Position numbers and translations under genes: made by a program. The notes beneath the pieces are model-generated. The model did not search any database. It had not been told where the DNA came from and saw only the letters and a list, made by a program, of their open reading frames with translations. Source: Acidobacteriota bacterium (GTDB lineage: Bacteria; Acidobacteriota; Thermoanaerobaculia; Multivoradales; JAGPDF01). From it: a stretch of DNA of 37,030 nucleotides. Positions 7,345-15,733 of the stretch are shown here, in pieces. Numbering within the stretch: the stretch's first letter is position 1; every line of letters begins with the position of its first letter. Location: positions 1 to 37,030 of the forward strand of contig WYBK01000143.1 of NCBI GenBank assembly GCA_011525905.1. Reading direction: 5' to 3'.

Positions 7345-8718
7345 TCAGGGGCGAGCGAGTCGCCGCTCGAGCGCCTGGAACGCGTCGCCGATCGGGATCT
7401 GGGTCAGGTCGAGCGCGTGCGTGCCGCTCCAGAAGCCATCGGGCAGCGTCTCGAGGTAGTGGAGCGACGTGCCGCTGATCCACCCGACCATCGCCCGGTC
7501 GCCGCTCGGCGAGACCAGCAGCGACGGCGGCTCGGCACCGATCTCGGGCGCGCCGAAGGCCCGGACCGCCCGCAGCCGGAGCAGGTGCGTGAAGTCGCGA
7601 CCCTCCTCCGGCACGAGCGGCGGAATTTCGAGCAGCTCGCCCTCGCCGGCGCAGCCGTTGGCCAGGCCGCTGCCGTCGACCTGGTCGACCAGCTCGATGA
7701 TCGAGCCGCGCGCCTCGTCGGCCACCTGCCCGAGCGTGGCTCCCGGATCGGCGCCGAGCAGCGTCGCCTGCGCGCCGTCGGCGACGTGCGTGGCGACCGC
7801 CGGATGGAAGGTGCCCGCCAGCTCGATGATCGAGCCGCGCGCCTCGGCGGCGAGCGCCGGGACGTCCGCGGGGAAGAGCGTCTGACCGAGCTCGATGATC
7901 GAGCCCCGCGCCTCGTCGGCCAGCTGGCCGAGCTCGGCGGGCAGCACCCGGATCTCGACCGTGGCGACCCGCGAAGTGCGCGGATCGACGAAGCCGGCGA
8001 CGAGCTCGGAGCCGTCGCGCCCCGAGGAGAGCGTCGGCGCCCAAGCCAGGGCCTCGGCGGCCGGAACCGGCGAGGGAGACTCGGCGCCGACCAGCTCTTC
8101 GAGGGCGACGACCGGGTTCCAACCGACGAAGCGCCCCTCGACGAAGACCAGCGGCGAGTAGTAGGGCCGTGGACCCGCGCTCGAGGGCTCCATCCAGACC
8201 AGGTGAACGATCCGGCGGCTGAGCTCCACCGGCGCGCCGGCGATCGTCGTCTGGTAGCGCTCGCCGGTCACCAGGATCCGGATCGCCCGCTTCTCCTCGG
8301 TCGAGCCCGCGGAGAGGTCGATCTCCTCGCCCCACCCTTCCGGGGTCAGGGCGCGCAGGACGAGCTGCGACCGCTCGAAGTTGATGTCGATCCGGCGGTT
8401 CCACACGAGGTGGAGCGTCGACGTCTCCTCCTCGAAGAGCAGTGCCGGCGAGCTCTCGACCTCCTCGCCCTCGGTTCCGGGCACCACCCAGCGCTCGAGC
8501 GGCTCGCCCGGCCGCACCAGATCGAGGGCCAGCACGGCGCGCTCGGCCGGCAGCGCCGGGCTCTCGCCGAACAGGTCGGCGAAGCGGCCGGCGTGGACCT
8601 TGTAGAAGGTGCCGTTGGCGGCGACCGCCGAGGGCGCGGGCGCTAGCGCCGCCTCGGCCGCGGGCAGCGCGGCGAGCAGGGCGACGAGCGCCACGAGGAG
8701 GATGCGCGCCGCTCTCAT
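7345..8718 (-). CDS. Secreted protein with tandem EARGSIIEL repeats, unknown function
   Basis: This 457-residue protein has a clear signal peptide (hydrophobic residues 7-20, likely cleavage after AEA near 23). The mature protein is mostly predicted beta, with blade-like segments such as STLHLVWNRR, RIVHLVWMEP and RAMVGWISG that recall BNR/propeller proteins. In the middle (about residues 265-345) sits a different, helix-like region with three copies of EARGSIIEL, twice preceded by AD and once by AA. The copies are 23 and 43 residues apart, with a degenerate copy (GAQATLLG) filling the larger gap. I recognise no family. It is the last gene of the XRE-TPR operon; its ATG overlaps the TPR stop (ATGA). 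Confidence 0.75.
   Translation of the reverse strand: MRAARILLVALVALLAALPAAEAALAPAPSAVAANGTFYKVHAGRFADLFGESPALPAERAVLALDLVRPGEPLERWVVPGTEGEEVESSPALLFEEETSTLHLVWNRRIDINFERSQLVLRALTPEGWGEEIDLSAGSTEEKRAIRILVTGERYQTTIAGAPVELSRRIVHLVWMEPSSAGPRPYYSPLVFVEGRFVGWNPVVALEELVGAESPSPVPAAEALAWAPTLSSGRDGSELVAGFVDPRTSRVATVEIRVLPAELGQLADEARGSIIELGQTLFPADVPALAAEARGSIIELAGTFHPAVATHVADGAQATLLGADPGATLGQVADEARGSIIELVDQVDGSGLANGCAGEGELLEIPPLVPEEGRDFTHLLRLRAVRAFGAPEIGAEPPSLLVSPSGDRAMVGWISGTSLHYLETLPDGFWSGTHALDLTQIPIGDAFQALERRLARP
7693..7903 (-). repeat. Three near-identical repeats coding for EARGSIIEL
   Basis: The 13-nt core CTCGATGATCGAG (plus strand) occurs at 7693-7705, 7822-7834 and 7891-7903, each followed by nearly the same 12 nt. 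The spacings of 129 and 69 nt are multiples of a 3-nt codon frame. The core is itself an inverted repeat, CTCGAT-G-ATCGAG. The identical codons suggest recent duplication or selection on the DNA. Confidence 0.85.
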
Positions 8719-9617
8719 GCCTTGAGGTTCACCAGCTTGCGCACGTCGAGCTGGACCAGCAGCTCGGGCAAATAGTCGGCGTCGGGGAAGAAGTCGGCCT
8801 GGAGCTGCTGGTACCAGCGCTTGGCGGCGAAACGGTCGCCGAGCGCCGTGGCCGCGGCACCGAGCAGGTAGAGCGCGTTCTTCGCCGCTTCCCCGAGTCC
8901 GCTCTCGCGCGCCAGCTCGAGCGCCCGGCCGGCGTGCCGCGCCGCGGCGCGCGGCTTCTCGGACTCGAGGGCGGCGAAAGCGAGATCGAGCCGCGCCAGC
9001 GCCTCGTGACGGCGCGCTCCCTGCCGGCGCAGCGCGCGCACCGCCGCGACCAGATGGCCGTAGCCCGCGCGGCGACGGCCGAGCAGCGTCTCGCAGTAGC
9101 CGAGGTTGTAGAGGATCACGCTGCGGCGCGAGAAACGGTCGGAGGCGACCAGCTCGAGCGCGCGGGCATAGGTCGTGGCCGCCTCGTCGAAACGGCTCTC
9201 GGCGACCAGGACGTTTCCCAGCTGGTTGAGGCTCGAGCCGAGCCGCTCGCGGTCGAGCCGCTCGGCGCGGTCGCGAGCGAGCTGCGCGTAGAAGCGCGCC
9301 TTGCGCGATTCCTTCCTCAGCTCGTAGAAGCGGGCGAGCGAGTAGGCGGCGAGGAACGCGGTCTCGTCGTCGGCATTGGCGAGGAGCACGTCGCGCAGCT
9401 CCGCGGCGTAGCCCCCTTCGAGCCCGAGCTCGATCGCCACCCGCGCGCGATTGCAGCGCACGCGGGCCGCGAGCACCGCATCCCCCGAGATCGCCGCCCA
9501 CGCGAGCGCGGCCTCGACCAGCGGCAGCGCCTCCTCGAGGCGCCCCGCCTCGACCAGCTCGCTCCAGCGCGCGCGCGCCGCCTCGAGCTCGGACGCACTG
9601 CCGATCCGCGGCGTCAC
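8715..9617 (-). CDS. TPR-repeat cytoplasmic protein
   Basis: This 300-residue all-alpha protein shows successive helical hairpins of TPR type, for example SLNQLGNVLVAESRFDEAAT, VILYNLGYCETLLGRRRAGY and ALYLLGAAATALGDRFAAK. The repeats run almost the full length and there is no signal peptide or membrane segment. GTG 9617 overlaps the stop of the XRE gene (GTGA), and its own stop overlaps the start of the secreted repeat protein. TPR proteins bind partner proteins or peptides, and next to an XRE regulator it may modulate that regulator, as TPR domains do in RRNPP systems. That role is an inference. Confidence 0.83.
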   Translation of the reverse strand: MTPRIGSASELEAARARWSELVEAGRLEEALPLVEAALAWAAISGDAVLAARVRCNRARVAIELGLEGGYAAELRDVLLANADDETAFLAAYSLARFYELRKESRKARFYAQLARDRAERLDRERLGSSLNQLGNVLVAESRFDEAATTYARALELVASDRFSRRSVILYNLGYCETLLGRRRAGYGHLVAAVRALRRQGARRHEALARLDLAFAALESEKPRAAARHAGRALELARESGLGEAAKNALYLLGAAATALGDRFAAKRWYQQLQADFFPDADYLPELLVQLDVRKLVNLKA

Positions 9618-9985
9618 GAGAAGCTCCGGCCGGCGCGGCGGCGGCGATCCGTGGGAACCTGGTCGAAGATCCAGCTCTCGACCTCCTGCTGCGCGCCGCT
9701 GTCGAGCGCATGGAAGCCGCGCACGAGTCGCATGTCGCGCGGCGTGATGGTCTCTTTCGAGATCTCGTCGAAGAACTCGCCGATGCCGACGCGGAACTCG
9801 GCGAGGATCTTGAAGAGCGTGTCGAGGCTCACCCGGTACTCGCCCTTCTCCATGCGCGACAGATCGGACTGCTGGATGCCCAGACGCACGGCGAGCTCGG
9901 TCTGCGTCAGCCGGCGCTCCTTGCGCAGCTGACGGATCTTGCGGCCCACGAGTTGGACCTGCCGGAACTCGGACGTCGTCGCCAT
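9614..9985 (-). CDS. XRE-family HTH transcriptional regulator
   Basis: This 123-residue protein has a Cro/C1-type helix-turn-helix at about residues 10-65: VGRKIRQLRKERRLTQTELA, then LGIQQSDLSRMEKGEYRVSL, then DTLFKILAEF. A short C-terminal region follows, with SKETITPRDMRLVRGFHALD. ATG 9985 is chosen because it follows a good promoter with a leader of about 29 nt. The open frame upstream would run through that promoter. An 11-bp inverted repeat overlaps the likely ribosome-binding region, which suggests autoregulation. It is the first gene of a three-gene operon coupled by 4-nt overlaps and divergent from the permease gene. Confidence 0.9.
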   Translation of the reverse strand: MATTSEFRQVQLVGRKIRQLRKERRLTQTELAVRLGIQQSDLSRMEKGEYRVSLDTLFKILAEFRVGIGEFFDEISKETITPRDMRLVRGFHALDSGAQQEVESWIFDQVPTDRRRRAGRSFS

Positions 9986-9992
9986 GGCGTCG

Positions 9993-10003
9993 CTCTTAAA
10001 GAG
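9993..10003. promoter_or_regulatory. 11-bp inverted repeat, candidate operator of the XRE gene
   Basis: CTCTT-A-AAGAG lies between the predicted transcription start (near 10014) and ATG 9985 and includes the only purine-rich ribosome-binding candidate (AAGAG on the minus strand). A repressor bound here would block both transcription and translation of the operon. Confidence 0.4.
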
Positions 10004-10020
10004 GCGCTCCCTCGGATCGC

Positions 10021-10050
10021 ATAGTAGGAGCGGGGGCGAATCCATGTCAA
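10021..10050 (-). promoter_or_regulatory. Sigma-70-type promoter of the XRE-TPR-repeat operon
   Basis: On the minus strand a perfect TTGACA (10050-10045) and TACTAT (10026-10021) are separated by 18 nt. This is one of the two best promoter matches in the window. It lies between the divergent XRE and permease genes. Confidence 0.75.
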
Positions 10051-10091
10051 GATGCCATCCGGGCCCGCCGGCCACCCCGCCCCGCGAGAAG

Positions 10092-10862
10092 ATGATCCGC
10101 TTCCGATTCCTGCTGCGCGAGCTGGTCGCGCGCGACCTCAAGAGCCGCTATGCCGGCTCGCTGTTCGGCTTCTTCTGGGCCTTCCTCCACCCCCTCTGGC
10201 AGCTCGCCCTGTTCACGGTGGTCTTCTCCTACATCCTGCGCATCCCCCTGGTCGGCGAGCGAACCTCGAGCTTCCCGCTCTTCCTATTCGCCGGCCTGCT
10301 CCCCTGGCTCGGCGTCCAGGAGGGCCTCGCGCGCGCCACGACGGCGATCGCCGAGGGGGCGAACCTGGTCAAGAAGCTGCGCTTCCCGAGCGAGATCCTG
10401 GTGCTCGGCGTCGTGCTCGGCGCCTTCGCCCATCAACTCGTGGCGCTCGGCCTGTTCGGCGCCCTGCAGGCGGCGCGCGGCGAGCTCGAGCCCCGCCACC
10501 TCCCCTGGCTCGCGGCCGGCGCCCTGGTCCAGCTCGCCCTCACCTTCGGCCTCGGCCTGGCCACCGGGGCACTCCAGGTCTACTTCCGCGACGTCGCCCA
10601 GCTCGTCGGCATCCTGCTGCCCGCCTGGTTCTATCTCACGCCGATCGTCTACGCGCCGGCCTGGGTCCCGGCCGCCTTCGCCCGCTGGGTCGAATACAAT
10701 CCGCTGGCCACGATCGTGCAGCTCTACCGCTGCGCGCTCCTCGGCGGCGACCCCCCCGGCGCCGCCGCCACCGCGATCGCTGCGGCGGTGGCCGGCGTCG
10801 CGCTCCTGATGGGCACGGCGCTCTTCCGCCGTCTGAGCCCGGGCTTCCCGGACGAGCTCTGA
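10092..10862 (+). CDS. wzm: ABC-2 polysaccharide export permease (Wzm-like)
   Basis: This 256-residue integral membrane protein has about six hydrophobic segments. It opens with the amphipathic stretch RELVARDLKSRYAGSLFGFFW, typical of Wzm/KpsM/TagG permeases, and ends with LTPIVYAP and EYNPLATIVQLYR, two conserved landmarks of that family. It should form the channel that flips a completed lipid-linked polysaccharide to the periplasm. ATG 10092 is preferred because ATG 10044 lies inside the opposing XRE promoter and adds a Pro-rich tail lacking family features. The matching ATPase is not adjacent as usual but lies 3.7 kb downstream (14531), after two secreted-protein genes. Confidence 0.9.
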   Translation: MIRFRFLLRELVARDLKSRYAGSLFGFFWAFLHPLWQLALFTVVFSYILRIPLVGERTSSFPLFLFAGLLPWLGVQEGLARATTAIAEGANLVKKLRFPSEILVLGVVLGAFAHQLVALGLFGALQAARGELEPRHLPWLAAGALVQLALTFGLGLATGALQVYFRDVAQLVGILLPAWFYLTPIVYAPAWVPAAFARWVEYNPLATIVQLYRCALLGGDPPGAAATAIAAAVAGVALLMGTALFRRLSPGFPDEL

Positions 10863-10944
10863 GCGGCTTCCGGAGGCGGCGGTACCGCTCTTGCTTCCGC
10901 GCCGGAGACGCCGCCACTTTGGCCCGCTTCAAGAAAGGAAGACC

Positions 10945-12702
10945 ATGCCTCGAAACGTCCACCGCCTCGCCTCTGCCGCCTCCGGGCGACTCACCCTGCT
11001 CGTCGCGCTGGCGGCGGCCGCCCTCGCGCTGCCGGCGCTCGGCCAGGAGCCGACTCCGCCAGCGGCGCAGCCGCAAGATCCAGTCACGGCGCAGCCGCAA
11101 GATCCAGTCACGGCGCAGCCGCCGGCGACCGCCGAGGCCGCCTCGGTCCCGGCCGAGCCGGGCGCCGAGCAGCCCCTGCGCCCCTGGCAGCGGCAGGAAG
11201 GCCCGCCCGACGGCAAGTGGCTCACCGACGCCCAGGGACGCCAGTACTACGTGCGCAAGTTCGCGCGCCCGGCCGAGGGCGCCTATCTGCGCCTCGAGGG
11301 CAACCGCGTGCGCCTGCCCGGCGGCGTCGCCTTCGAGCTGGTCGACGAGGACGCCGAGTTCTTCTACGCGAAGATCTATCGTGTCGACAACATCGAGACG
11401 CGGCTCTCGCGCAAGAAGGCCGAGCCGACGCCCGAGCAGCTCGCGGCCAAGGAGGCCGAGTACCGCTTCGAGGCCCGCGAGAGCGACCGCGTCCGCTTCG
11501 TGCCCTTCGGCGAGGGCCTGCCGAACCAGGGTCAGTGGCGCAACGGCTTCGAGCTCGCCGACGTCAACGGCGACCGCAAGACCGACATCGCGCACGGCGG
11601 CACCCGCCGCACCATGGCTCCGGTGCCCAACCTCTTCATCGGCGACGGCAAGGGCGCCTTCCGCTACTGGCAGGAGGCGACTTACCCGCGGCAGCCCTAC
11701 GACTACGGCGATGTCGCGGTCGGCGACTTCAACGGCGACGGCAAGGCGGATCTCGCGCTCGCGATCCACCTGCGCGGCCTGCTCGCCCTGTTCGGCGACG
11801 GCAAGGGCGCCTTCCGGCTGGCCGGCGAGGGGCTCTCCTTCGAGGCGGGGCAGCTCCAGCCGGGCAACGTCACGCAGTTCTCCTCGCGCGCCATCGTCGC
11901 GCTCGACTGGGACCGCGACGGCGACCAGGAGATCCTCGCTCTCGCCGAGGGGCCGATGGGCTCGTTCGCCGCGCAGAAAGGGCTGACCAACCGGATGCAG
12001 CAGTCCTACGGCGTCGCGCTCTACGACTTCGACACGGAGACCGGCAAGTGGGTCGTGCTCGGCGGCGGCAAGACGCACCCGGAGCTGTTCGGCGACTCGC
12101 TGGTGGCGGCCGACTTCGACGGCGACGGCCGGATCGACTTCGCCGCCGGCTCGAACAGCCGGAGCAACAAGGCGCTGGTCCACCTGCATCACGAGGACGG
12201 CAGCTGGGGCTACCTCTGGGTCGAGCCGGTGCGCGATCGCGCCTTCGCGCGCGCGGTCGGCGCCGGCGACTTCGACGGCGACGGCAAGGCCGACCTGGCG
12301 GTCGGCTATCAGAGCGTGGAGCTCGGCGTCTGGCGCTCCGGGATCGACGTGATGCTCTCCCGCCCGGAAGCGGCGTGGGAGCGCCGGACGGTCTACGTCG
12401 AGGCGGGCCGGGAGGGCTTTTACTCCCTGGCGACCGGCGATCTCGACGGCGACGGCCATGCCGACCTGACCGCGGGCACCGGCGACGGCCGGGTCTTCGC
12501 CTTCCTCGGCGACGGCAAGGGGGGCTTCAGCCGCGAGGCGACCGACGACCTCGCCGCCGAAGCGGGCTGCCGGGTCTACGACCTCGGCATCACCGATCTC
12601 GACGGCGATCGGCGCGGCGATCTGGTCGCGGCCTTCGCCGGCGAGCAGTGCCCCGACGGCGGCCGCCTGAGCGCCTGGGCGAGCCGGGCGCCGCGCCGCT
12701 GA
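10945..12702 (+). CDS. Secreted FG-GAP/VCBS beta-propeller protein
   Basis: This 585-residue protein has a signal peptide (hydrophobic residues about 10-32, cleavage near ALGQ). A Pro/Ala/Gln-rich linker follows, then a domain of about 100 residues and seven FG-GAP-type calcium loops: DVNGDRKTD, DFNGDGKAD, DWDRDGDQE, DFDGDGRID, DFDGDGKAD, DLDGDGHAD and DLDGDRRGD. Seven repeats fit one integrin-like seven-bladed propeller. AAGGAAG before ATG 10945 is the ribosome-binding site. It starts 82 nt after the permease gene, so it may be co-transcribed. A surface or periplasmic binding role, perhaps for the exported glycan, is inferred only from position. Confidence 0.85.
   Translation: MPRNVHRLASAASGRLTLLVALAAAALALPALGQEPTPPAAQPQDPVTAQPQDPVTAQPPATAEAASVPAEPGAEQPLRPWQRQEGPPDGKWLTDAQGRQYYVRKFARPAEGAYLRLEGNRVRLPGGVAFELVDEDAEFFYAKIYRVDNIETRLSRKKAEPTPEQLAAKEAEYRFEARESDRVRFVPFGEGLPNQGQWRNGFELADVNGDRKTDIAHGGTRRTMAPVPNLFIGDGKGAFRYWQEATYPRQPYDYGDVAVGDFNGDGKADLALAIHLRGLLALFGDGKGAFRLAGEGLSFEAGQLQPGNVTQFSSRAIVALDWDRDGDQEILALAEGPMGSFAAQKGLTNRMQQSYGVALYDFDTETGKWVVLGGGKTHPELFGDSLVAADFDGDGRIDFAAGSNSRSNKALVHLHHEDGSWGYLWVEPVRDRAFARAVGAGDFDGDGKADLAVGYQSVELGVWRSGIDVMLSRPEAAWERRTVYVEAGREGFYSLATGDLDGDGHADLTAGTGDGRVFAFLGDGKGGFSREATDDLAAEAGCRVYDLGITDLDGDRRGDLVAAFAGEQCPDGGRLSAWASRAPRR
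11065..11121 (+). repeat. 24-bp tandem repeat in the linker of the FG-GAP protein
   Basis: Two exact 24-nt units (11065-11088 and 11089-11112) and nine bases of a third encode AQPQDPVT twice. They lie in a disordered linker just after the signal peptide. In-frame unit gain or loss would change linker length only. Confidence 0.85.
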
Positions 12703-12801
12703 GCCCGGGGGCCGCGAGCCCGGGTTCGGGGCCGGTGAAGCGGCCGTGCGCTCCGGCGAGCCGCCCCGGGGTCACCGGACCCCCTTGCGCCGCCCGGTTT
12801 G

Positions 12802-12810
12802 TGGTACCAT
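12802..12810 (+). promoter_or_regulatory. Extended -10 promoter candidate for the 12-cysteine secreted protein
   Basis: TGGTACCAT matches the TGn-TAnnnT extended -10 pattern and has no clear -35 at the right distance. It would start transcription near 12817 and give a leader of about 120 nt. Confidence 0.4.
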
Positions 12811-12839
12811 TCCGCCGACTGGACAACCTTTGAATGGGA

Positions 12840-12851
12840 GGTGATGTCACC
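12840..12851. promoter_or_regulatory. Inverted repeat GGTGA-TG-TCACC, candidate operator or leader hairpin
   Basis: Five-base arms flank two central bases, just downstream of the predicted transcription start and about 90 nt before the gene. It could be a protein-binding site or part of leader structure. Confidence 0.35.
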
Positions 12852-12867
12852 GGATTCGGCGAGGGTG

Positions 12868-12882
12868 GATCTGATCTGATCT
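12868..12882 (+). repeat. GATCT x3 pentanucleotide tandem repeat in the leader
   Basis: Three contiguous GATCT units lie about 55 nt before the start codon of the secreted protein. Being outside the coding frame, a change in unit number would alter leader length. Confidence 0.8.
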
Positions 12883-12893
12883 GGTAACGAACG

Positions 12894-12914
12894 TTCCTTT
12901 CACGAGGAAAGGGA
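12894..12914 (+). other. Leader hairpin before the ribosome-binding site
   Basis: CCTTTC (12896-12901) pairs with GAAAGG (12907-12912) around a 5-nt loop, and flanking bases extend the stem with a U-G and a U-A pair. It ends eight bases before the AAAGGGAGA Shine-Dalgarno sequence at 12922-12930. An mRNA-stabilising or translation-tuning role is plausible. Confidence 0.4.
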
Positions 12915-12937
12915 TACACCCAAAGGGAGATTGTCTA

Positions 12938-14446
12938 ATGAAGAAGATTGTCAGCTGCCTCGCGGTGGCAGGCCTTCTGATGCTGGGGAGTTCGGCGATC
13001 GCCGACTTCTGCACCATCGAGGCGACGCCCGCCGCGACGCTCCTCCTGCCGTATTTCGAGGTCGATATCAACGACCCGAACGGCATCGATACGTTCTTCT
13101 CGATCAACAACGCGTCGGCGGCCGCGGCCCTGACGCACGTGATCATCTGGACCGACCTGTCGGTCGAGGCGTTGGACTTCAACGTCTACCTGACCGGCTA
13201 CGACGTCCAGACGATCGGCATGGGCCTGATCATCCGTGATGGCATCCTGCCGGTCACCGGCGACGCCACCTCGATCAGCCCGGTCGGCCCGTACTCGGAC
13301 GTTCCTCCGGGCGGCATCGACAACGCGATCGACGGTTACTCGGCCTGCATCGGCGTCTTCCCGTACTCGGTGCCGGCGCTCGACGAGGACTACCTCAACC
13401 ACCTGCAGTCGATCCTCACCGGCGGCCCGTCGGCGATCTACAACGGCCGTTGCGGCGGTCTCGACTACGGGGACGGCATCGCCCGCGGCTACGTCACGGT
13501 CGATCTCGTCAACAACTGCACGCTGCTGCGCCCCTGCGAGGAGGGTTACTTCTACACCGGCGCCGGGCCGTACACCGGCGTTGGCGAGTACGACAACATC
13601 CTCTGGGGCGACTGGTACATGATCGACTACGCCAACAACTTCGCCCAGGGCGACACGTTGGTGCACGTCGAGGCCGTCAACCCGCTCGATCAGGTCGGCC
13701 AGGACTACCTCAACGGCACCTTCTACGGCCGTTGCGGCCTGGACAGCGAGTTCTGGCCCTTCCCGCCGTCGCCCTGGTTCGACCTGCGCGAGACCCTGCC
13801 GACCACCTTCGCCACCCGCTTCTACCAGAACGCGGCGTTCGACGGCGGCACGGACCTGCTGGTCTGGCGTGACTCGGTCATCCAGATGTTCCTGCCGGAC
13901 CTCATCGCGTACTTCTACGGCTCGCGCTACGGCGACCTCGACGCGGCGGGCTTCAACTGCAACATCGGACCGCTCTGGTTCCCGCTCTCGCAGCGGCAGA
14001 CCGTGACGTTCGACGAGCAGGAGAACCCGGAAGCGCTCTGCACGATCTCCCCCTGCCCGGAGGAGGACATCCTCTTCCCGGCCGAGGCGCAGCGCGTTTC
14101 GATTCCGAACCTCGACGTGGTGCCGGAGTCCGGCTGGCTCTACCTCAACCTCAACCAGGGGCCGTTCTCCTGCGAGGGTGAGGACTGCTCGATCCTCTCG
14201 CAGGCCTGGGTGACCTCGGTCCACAGCGCCGAGGGTCGCTTCAGCGCCGGTCTGCCGGCGATCCAGCTCGACAACTTCTGCGACAACCGCAGCATCGTTC
14301 TCGGGCCTTCGCCGGACTACCCGCTGGGTGACGTGGTTTACAACTACTTCACCAGCTACTACTACGGTGGCGGCGGTGCCAAGGCTCCGACCTCTGGCGA
14401 CTTCCCGTACGCTCACAAGAAGATGAGCAAGTTCATCGGCGACTGA
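12938..14446 (+). CDS. Orphan secreted 12-cysteine protein, unknown function
   Basis: This 502-residue protein has a classical signal peptide (MKK, hydrophobic core, likely cleavage AIA-DFC near residue 22). I count twelve cysteines in the mature part, an even number that suits six extracellular disulfides. It is rich in Asp, Asn, Tyr, Gly and Phe, poor in Lys and Arg, and ends in a Tyr/Gly-rich stretch and a short Lys-containing tail. There is no recognisable catalytic motif or named domain. The AAAGGGAGA ribosome-binding site is the strongest in the window. With its own promoter, structured leader and UUCG terminator, it is probably highly expressed alone. It splits the exporter genes, and its base use is less GC-extreme than its neighbours. 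Confidence 0.85.
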   Translation: MKKIVSCLAVAGLLMLGSSAIADFCTIEATPAATLLLPYFEVDINDPNGIDTFFSINNASAAAALTHVIIWTDLSVEALDFNVYLTGYDVQTIGMGLIIRDGILPVTGDATSISPVGPYSDVPPGGIDNAIDGYSACIGVFPYSVPALDEDYLNHLQSILTGGPSAIYNGRCGGLDYGDGIARGYVTVDLVNNCTLLRPCEEGYFYTGAGPYTGVGEYDNILWGDWYMIDYANNFAQGDTLVHVEAVNPLDQVGQDYLNGTFYGRCGLDSEFWPFPPSPWFDLRETLPTTFATRFYQNAAFDGGTDLLVWRDSVIQMFLPDLIAYFYGSRYGDLDAAGFNCNIGPLWFPLSQRQTVTFDEQENPEALCTISPCPEEDILFPAEAQRVSIPNLDVVPESGWLYLNLNQGPFSCEGEDCSILSQAWVTSVHSAEGRFSAGLPAIQLDNFCDNRSIVLGPSPDYPLGDVVYNYFTSYYYGGGGAKAPTSGDFPYAHKKMSKFIGD

Positions 14447-14469
14447 GCCGGCGAGCTTGACCGCCTCAC

Positions 14470-14505
14470 GGGGCGCGGGCCTTCGGGTCCGCGCCCCTTT
14501 TCTTT
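14470..14505 (+). terminator. Rho-independent terminator with UUCG tetraloop
   Basis: A 12-bp stem (14470-14481 with 14486-14497, one G-U pair) is closed by a C(UUCG)G tetraloop and followed by TTTTCTTT. It lies 23 nt after the stop of the secreted-protein gene and is the only canonical terminator I see in the window. Confidence 0.93.
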
Positions 14506-14530: not shown

Positions 14531-15733
14531 ATGGCGATCGCCGTCGCGGCCGCGGGGCTGTCGAAGACCTACCGCATCTACCCCTCCGCGGCGGCCCGCC
14601 TGACCGAGCTGGTCCTGCGCGCGCGGCGCCACGTCCCCTTCCCGGCGCTCACCGACGTCACTTTCGAGCAGCCGCGGGGCCACGGCCTCGCGCTCGTCGG
14701 CGAGAACGGCGCCGGCAAGTCGACGCTCTTGAAGCTGGTCGCCGGCGTGGCGCAGCCGACCGCGGGCACGCTCGAGGTCGCCGGCCGGGTCGCCGCGATC
14801 CTCGAGCTCGGGGCCGGCTTCCACCCCGACTTCAGCGGGCGGCAGAACATCGAGCTCAACGCCGCGCTGCTCGGTCTCGAGCGCGCCGAGGTCGAGGCGC
14901 GCCTGCCCGAGATCGTCGAGTGGAGCGAGCTCGGCGACTTCATCGACCGCCCCGTGCGCCAGTACTCGAGCGGCATGGCGATGCGGCTCGGGTTCGCCAT
15001 CGCCACCCAGGTCGATCCCGACGTGCTGATCGTCGACGAAGCGCTCTCGGTGGGCGACGGCTACTTCCAGAAGAAGTGCATGGACAAGATCCTCGCCTTC
15101 GTCGAGCAGGGCAAGACCCTGCTGTTCTGCTCGCACGCGATGTACTACGTCTCGGCGCTGTGCGAGCGCGCGCTCTGGCTGCGCGAGGGCCGGGTCGAGG
15201 CGCTGGGCGCGACCGACGAGGTCGTACGCGCCTACGAGCGCCATCTGCTCGCCAAGGGCGCCGAGCGCGAGGAGACGCCCACGGCGCTCGCCGACTCGGG
15301 TGAGCACGACGCCCTGGGTGGCAAACCGGCCCGGATTCTCGCCGTGCACCAGGCGAGCGCATCGGGCGAGCACCCCGCCTATCGCTGCGGCGAGCCCTGG
15401 CAGGTCGAGATCGACTGGGAGAGCGACGCGGCCGAGCTCGCCTTCCACGTCGCCGTCGGCATCAACCGCGCGGAGGACGGCCTGCCGATCGCCTCCTTCG
15501 CCACCCACTACTCGGGACTGCCGGGGATCACCGGCGCGCGCCACCACCACCTGCGGCTCGAAGTGCCGGCGCTGCCGCTCGCCAAGGGGAGCTTCTCGCT
15601 CACCGTCTTCCTGCTCGACGAGCGCGGCCTGCACGTCCACGACCAGCGGCTGGTCCCGGAGGCCTTCGCCGTCGTCACTCCCCGCTTCGTGCCCGGGCTG
15701 GTCGAGATCGAGCACGGCTGGCACCTCGGGTAG
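14531..15733 (+). CDS. wzt: ABC polysaccharide export ATPase with carbohydrate-binding tail (Wzt-like)
   Basis: This 400-residue protein has an N-terminal nucleotide-binding domain (about residues 1-240). It shows Walker A GENGAGKST, signature YSSGM, Walker B VLIVDEALSVGD and H-loop CSHAM. The segment LELGAGFHPDFSGRQNI is typical of Wzt/TagH ATPases. The C-terminal part (about 265-400), with CGEPWQVEIDW and GSFSLTVFLLDE, resembles the Wzt beta-sandwich that recognises the end of the finished O-polysaccharide. It should energise export through the Wzm-like permease at 10092. If so, chain ends are probably capped, for example by methylation, and a methyltransferase is encoded downstream. Confidence 0.92.
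   Translation: MAIAVAAAGLSKTYRIYPSAAARLTELVLRARRHVPFPALTDVTFEQPRGHGLALVGENGAGKSTLLKLVAGVAQPTAGTLEVAGRVAAILELGAGFHPDFSGRQNIELNAALLGLERAEVEARLPEIVEWSELGDFIDRPVRQYSSGMAMRLGFAIATQVDPDVLIVDEALSVGDGYFQKKCMDKILAFVEQGKTLLFCSHAMYYVSALCERALWLREGRVEALGATDEVVRAYERHLLAKGAEREETPTALADSGEHDALGGKPARILAVHQASASGEHPAYRCGEPWQVEIDWESDAAELAFHVAVGINRAEDGLPIASFATHYSGLPGITGARHHHLRLEVPALPLAKGSFSLTVFLLDERGLHVHDQRLVPEAFAVVTPRFVPGLVEIEHGWHLG

Follow-up and report, generated by a model that had tools for sequence, protein, structure and literature searches.

A conserved leader element complementary to the 16S rRNA 3′ end precedes the gene for a predicted double ASRAH-like secreted protein in one class of Acidobacteriota

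Introduction

ABC exporters of the Wzm/Wzt type are associated with O antigen, galactan and teichoic acid. In Bacillus, the STAB-SD, a stabiliser at the 5′ end of the cry3A mRNA, is described as blocking RNase J1 (PMC4113751), and a standby site has been described upstream of tisB in Escherichia coli (PMC7708055). For the ASRAH superfamily, De Souza et al. 2009 (PMC2739507) propose sugar binding and describe its other families as forming dyads or tetrads. Here we compare with these systems a gene and its leader on a 37,030-nt stretch of DNA, called the window below (positions 1 to 37,030, forward strand, of contig WYBK01000143.1, assembly GCA_011525905.1, Acidobacteriota bacterium, Thermoanaerobaculia). 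No literature on this leader or on the protein family was found, as judged by titles and the beginnings of abstracts.

Transcription unit and codon usage

An earlier note on this DNA, made from the sequence alone, had described a unit consisting of an extended −10 element, a leader of about 120 nt, a ribosome-binding site (RBS), a secreted protein and a UUCG terminator. This unit was present as described, with the following features:

12800–12810, plus strand: extended −10 promoter element TGTGGTACCAT (TGG-TACCAT), read from the sequence, with the same letters in the orthologue L038
12828–12846, plus strand: conserved leader element CTTTGAATGGGAGGTGATG, whose core GGAGGTGAT at 12837–12845 is complementary to the usual 16S rRNA 3′ end
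12840–12851, plus strand: inverted repeat GGTGATGTCACC with 5-bp arms around TG, overlapping the conserved leader element
12868–12882, plus strand: GATCT repeated three times, read from the sequence
12893–12915, plus strand: leader hairpin of nine pairs, −9.8 kcal/mol, z −2.2
12922–12929, plus strand: RBS AAAGGGAG of the 502-aa gene, from sequence and anti-Shine-Dalgarno (anti-SD) pairing
12938–14446, plus strand: coding sequence of 502 amino acids, with a signal-like peptide (about 1–22, by eye), an N domain (about 22–247), a C domain (284–450) and a low-confidence tail (462–502)
14470–14497, plus strand: intrinsic terminator, 12-pair stem with a TTCG loop, then TTTTCTTT, from scan and folding

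A consensus scan found no full sigma-70 promoter, with 0.2 expected. The terminator stretch folded with z −2.7; the count of terminator-like sites is not above chance by itself, because the scan expects 0.9 in shuffles. The z score was −1.7 for the folding of the entire leader and −1.5, unremarkable, for the inverted repeat. In the nearest orthologous leader (copy A of G003, a genome of the same genus as the window genome; L038), TGTGGTACCAT and GGGAGGTGATG were kept, and conservation of the inverted repeat, the GATCT triplet and the hairpin was absent. The leader features that the earlier note had listed thus exist in the window, but by comparison with L038 they are not the conserved ones. 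The unit is real and had been partly misread, and the leader and the conserved locus described below add to it.

Codon usage was compared among 27 window genes, namely the family gene and 26 others (three more were dropped for frame errors), without a ribosomal-protein reference. CGT accounted for 31% of the Arg codons of the family gene and for at most 13% in each of the other 26. CCG made up 80% of its Pro codons and C-ending codons 95.3% in five codon pairs, both the highest of the 27 genes, the next gene reaching 95.2% in the latter. The effective codon number (Nc 29.6) and GC3 were not unusual. Some codon measures (CGT, CCG and C-ending codons) therefore suggest the high expression that had been proposed for this gene, but Nc and GC3 were ordinary.

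A conserved leader element complementary to the anti-SD sequence

The leaders of 110 distinct copies of the protein family were surveyed. A relaxed pattern of the element matched 42 of the 110 copies, and 40 were kept after L009 and L084 had been dropped as chance matches. Exact GGAGGTGAT occurred between −300 and −60 in 30 of the 105 copies with enough flank (mean 0.15, maximum 2 in 200 shuffles), and its reverse complement occurred in none of these 105 leaders. The element was found in 38 of 47 genomes, belonging to 16 families (G003 records merged); the 47 comprise 46 of the 50 numbered genomes in which the family matched, together with the record behind L034. The copies examined in the other 9 genomes had no element. 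Among the copies examined, 36 of the 38 genomes had one element copy, and G011 and G003 had two each. On the protein tree the element was scattered, with 24 changes compared with 31.5 in shuffles.

GGAGG lay 78–225 nt ahead of the start codon (median 121 nt). In the window, GGAGGTGAT would lie about 20 nt from the mRNA 5′ end, on the assumption that transcripts begin about 7 nt downstream of the −10 element. In 9 of the 40 leaders, by a count made without a control, the best −10-like hexamer ended 24–26 nt ahead of GGAGG, and in the others its position was scattered. The median anti-SD duplex energy was −17.7 kcal/mol for the element and −9.1 kcal/mol for the real RBS, and the element was the stronger in 40 of 40 leaders, an advantage that is partly by construction because the element was picked by sequence. 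The RBS itself was equally strong in copies with the element and in other copies (−9.1 kcal/mol in both). The element was predicted to be 38% unpaired (median). The 16S tail was recovered in one of the ten genomes searched. Several leaders from other orders (L103–L118) share ATCG-type words after GGAGGTGAT, such as GGAGGTGATCGTATCGTTCG in L105, and these words are a possible second element.

One explanation is a short regulatory leader peptide, acting by attenuation or coupling, for which GGAGGTGAT would be the Shine-Dalgarno site. An ATG overlaps the motif (GGTGATG) in 21 of the 42 leaders, and in the window it opens an ORF of 11 codons. However, this ATG lies only 2 nt after GGAGG, a spacing too close for normal initiation, and 13 of the 40 leaders have no start codon 1–16 nt after GGAGG. 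The ORFs of the remaining leaders are inconsistent, differing in length and sequence. We consider a leader peptide unlikely.

Conservation also reached beyond the search pattern, with T at +8 (0.89) and A at −12 (0.87), and the stretch from −8 to −6 was T-rich. The conservation upstream of GGAGG would suit a second explanation, in which the conserved stretch binds a protein or small RNA, or is part of a structured riboswitch-like leader, and is not a ribosome site. GGA motifs suit regulators of the CsrA type. CsrA (PF02599) was nevertheless found in none of 12 genomes, although 3 of 14 control genomes matched; the leader had no Rfam match at E ≤ 1 (the window had none either), and the conserved core coincides with the anti-SD complement. 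This explanation is improbable, if slightly less so than a leader peptide. RNAalifold gave an energy of 0 and no consensus structure for the 40 leaders, a test that is uninformative because shuffled alignments likewise gave 0. Sequestration of the RBS by the 5′ end, which was predicted in the window fold, was rejected as a general feature, as the first 30 nt and the RBS were expected to share at least five pairs in only 10 of the 40 leaders.

For specificity, the 19-mer was searched with up to three mismatches in ten genomes, and 17 places were found, 7 of them at family genes. The other 10 places were all within a same-strand ORF of at least 100 codons, which is weak evidence because the DNA is GC-rich. 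The 11-mer SGGAGGTGATS occurred 14 times in G000 (once as the window leader) and 36 times in G003, and the reversed control occurred 3 and 4 times, respectively. Ten of the 13 other matches in G000 were inside a GC3-rich ORF, by a test that also flagged a true leader, L138.

A docking site for the 30S subunit, either of the STAB-SD type or of the standby type, is our best reading of GGAGGTGAT, by analogy with the systems named above. RNase J was searched for in 12 genomes: PF17770 was found in one of the 12 and TIGR00649 above cut-off in one of the 12, with weak partial TIGR00649 matches in four further genomes. The RNase J-positive genome, G099, had no element in the three copies examined. 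Since RNase J passed its cut-off in only one genome of the 12, shielding from a different nuclease, or a tisB-like standby, would be at least as likely as the Bacillus mechanism.

The protein family and its predicted fold

The 502-aa protein has 13 cysteines, of which 12 follow the signal-like part, in agreement with the earlier count of 12 for the mature protein, and its N terminus, judged by eye, supports secretion. In an alignment of 31 members, C172 and C194 were invariant and C137 and C341 nearly invariant. Pfam and NCBIfam gave no family for the window protein, and no similarity to a known enzyme family was found. Pfam searches over the 31 relatives gave three chance-level names (best E 0.014). 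Sequence comparison with the PDB gave two chance-level matches (E 0.54 and 0.84), and a profile search against the PDB gave none. The claim that the protein has no recognisable domain therefore holds at the level of sequence in Pfam, NCBIfam and the PDB; it does not hold for structure prediction, suggested earlier, in which both halves were predicted to have a TM1070-like fold.

The model of the whole protein was built with 31 rows (pLDDT 75, pTM 0.81). Its N half matched 1nc7 (Thermotoga TM1070) with Z 9.2 and 2.8 Å over 112 residues; the second row was the Anabaena rhodopsin transducer (Z 6.6), and the remaining rows were below 4. A separate model of the C half, built from 84 rows (the window domain plus 83 of 92 stretches detected; pLDDT 83.7), matched 1nc7 with Z 9.9 and 2.9 Å over 105 residues, and the next entry had Z 4.0. 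The Anabaena transducer was absent among the matches listed for the C half. In this structure comparison, models that lack a clear match commonly reach a best Z of 7–8, and the TM1070 fold was accepted because of the gap in Z between 1nc7 and the next rows. Foldseek placed 1nc7 at E 0.095 (probability 0.97) for the whole model, and 1nc7 was not among the 50 matches listed for the C half. Rhamnosidase, Bap and arrestins, the top Foldseek rows for the whole model, were set aside with TM-scores below 0.2.

From these models, the protein very probably consists of two tandem beta-sandwich domains of the TM1070/ASRT type (ASRAH-like). ASRT (PF07100) gave no match for the window protein and was not among the families at E ≤ 0.1 for the 31 members. 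Comparison with three ASRT sequences by hhalign gave a probability below 1%, with a thin ASRT profile (Neff 1.4). A sequence duplication detectable between the two halves was rejected, since sequence and profile comparison found no similarity between them. The Trp with which strand 1 begins in ASRAH domains was absent in both halves of the window protein (residues 34–43 and 290–296). The ligand signature SHEshChhN was also absent, the family consensus being GVTTLFSINNAS; other ASRAH families likewise lack the H and C of the signature (PMC2739507). A further ASRAH feature is an Asn at the end of strand 2. At this position, as placed without a residue-level structural alignment, N58 was invariant and N57 nearly so in the N half, and D312 was found in the C half.

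The window genome has four places matching the family, three of them, besides the gene described here, at or near contig ends. Family matches were found in 33 of 59 genomes (the window genome included), with up to 15 places per genome, often in tandem. In an even sample of the phylum, 22 of 297 genomes had the family, all of the same class as the window. Within family f4, genus g6 gave no match in any of 14 genomes; G039, of another genus, had the family. L034 (JAGQOG010000270.1), filed under a Phycisphaerales MAG, is a close relative of the second copy in the window genome (L003) with similar upstream DNA, and its contig is possibly misbinned.

The many paralogues and tandem arrays could also point to a variable, recombining family of secreted proteins resembling surface antigens. 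Two G003 paralogues (copies A and B) have different leaders and signal peptides, and their mature parts are almost identical up to the contig break, the last 99 bases being identical; their 3′ parts are also close. However, such near-identity came from a single genome, a hypervariable cassette was not seen, and plain gene conversion fits the pattern. An antigen-like family is in our judgement an unlikely explanation, and the sequences suggest recent gene conversion between copies A and B. G003 contigs C27, C48, C14 and C18 (L038/L039 and L036/L037), which carry paralogues with different promoters and signal peptides, break inside the near-identical mature coding part. The assemblies may be broken because of recent gene conversion between paralogues.

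Gene neighbourhood

The earlier note had regarded the unit as self-contained. This was not borne out: an FG-GAP protein and an ABC exporter of the polysaccharide type are encoded around the gene in a conserved neighbourhood, which comprises the following genes:

8715–9617, minus strand: TPR protein, divergent, also in relatives (Pfam run on the L196 relative)
9614–10141, minus strand: XRE-type HTH regulator, divergent, also in relatives (Pfam run on the L196 relative)
9939–10862, plus strand: ABC-2 permease, conserved neighbour; the best NCBIfam models, Wzm/RfbD and KpsM, were both below cut-off
10891–12702, plus strand: FG-GAP repeat protein with a signal-like N terminus (by eye), directly upstream, conserved neighbour of the element copy
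14534–15733, plus strand: TagH/Wzt-like ABC ATPase; NCBIfam models and Wzt_C were below cut-off

Pfam identified ABC2_membrane in the window permease and ABC_tran in the ATPase. Of three ATPases scanned, Wzt_C was above cut-off in L195 and below it in the window and L201. On the minus strand of the window, an ORF at 7345–9711 carries imperfect repeats of the EARGSIIEL type.

Among copies with enough flank (32 more had short flanks), 36 of 40 with the element were immediately preceded, on the same strand, by an FG-GAP gene, compared with 3 of 37 without it. The four exceptions were L062 (the same as the chance match L009), G039, with FG-GAP on the other strand, one G011 copy and one G003 copy. 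Across 26 loci, clusters of FG-GAP-type ORFs were seen in 24 and of permease-type ORFs in 20, and XRE-type ORFs and TPR ORFs lay on the opposite strand; these ORF clusters may include antisense ORFs. In 13 loci the family gene was followed by an ORF of 919–1744 codons, with a Wzt-like ATPase labelled after it in 6 of the 13. Two of these large proteins were scanned with Pfam: PKD domains were found in L195, and L205 gave no match. In G005 and G007 (L189 and L191), the C terminus of the large protein resembles the window protein. The window locus lacks the large gene, and the ATPase directly follows the family gene. No Acidobacteriota literature linking FG-GAP, polysaccharide export and PKD was found.

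These data also bear on the view that the protein is an ordinary abundant structural or matrix protein that does not bind sugar, its beta-sandwich a mere scaffold and the gene order historical. A shared fold proves no function, the TM1070 ligand residues are not conserved, and 34 of the 37 element-less paralogues with sufficient flank sit apart from an FG-GAP gene. On the other hand, the link to the exporter genes is retained across other families of the class, at about 30% protein identity to the window. We rate this view below even, though as a more serious alternative than those considered above.

Discussion

The element is conserved across genomes, it has the potential to pair with the anti-SD sequence, and the gene order around it recurs. 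We propose that the probably secreted, predicted double ASRAH-like protein binds carbohydrate at the cell surface. It would associate with the polysaccharide exported by the surrounding ABC-2/Wzt-like system, together with the FG-GAP protein and, in relatives, the giant partner. Such a surface role, which draws on fold and gene order, has in our view about an even chance of being correct.

Where the element occurs, it is as a rule on a single copy per genome, typically that behind the FG-GAP gene, and its GGAGGTGAT can pair almost perfectly with the 16S 3′ end, with no evident start codon at that place. A 30S subunit would dock at GGAGGTGAT and shield the mRNA 5′ end; alternatively, the docked subunit would be a standby ribosome, supplying the true RBS further downstream. 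Under this proposal, docking at the leader would cause this copy to be made in large amounts. That docking, by 5′ protection or standby, boosts the element copy is a view we hold and doubt in equal measure. The same balance applies to the combination of fold, polysaccharide association and 30S-docking leader, which is the best explanation for the locus as a whole. More tentatively, and with the balance somewhat against it, the element could be a class-wide, non-initiating anti-SD complement that acts as a ribosome-docking mRNA enhancer of a new mechanism, on a new polysaccharide-associated double ASRAH-like family, mostly in genomes with no detectable RNase J.

Ahead of one gene the element has been retained even as the proteins have diverged to about 30% identity, and the leader offers a natural, strongly conserved test case for the role of a Shine-Dalgarno sequence that does not initiate translation. 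The apparent lack of RNase J would need a mechanism other than that of Bacillus. For the protein, a fold and a genomic role are proposed for a one-class family that has no Pfam or NCBIfam model.

Compared with the STAB-SD of Bacillus cry3A (PMC4113751), the element is likewise SD-like and complementary to the 16S 3′ end, is placed in the window some 100 nt ahead of the start codon, shows no evident initiation and would be near the mRNA 5′ end. It differs in occurring in another phylum, in genomes where RNase J was mostly undetected. The tisB standby site of E. coli shares the loading of a 30S subunit about 100 nt upstream of the RBS, but tisB relies on a 5′ pseudoknot and S1 (PMC7708055), whereas a plain anti-SD complement is found here. 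With the secreted actinobacterial dyad family of ASRAH (PMC2739507), the window protein shares two domains per protein, secretion, a sugar-related neighbourhood and the TM1070-type beta-sandwich (predicted for the window protein). It differs in having no detectable sequence similarity, no Trp and no SHEshChhN, and its N domain has a long insertion. In comparison with Wzm/Wzt exporters, the window models are below cut-off and the ASRAH-like and FG-GAP genes separate the permease from the ATPase, but the locus shares with them an ABC-2 permease and a TagH/Wzt-like ATPase.
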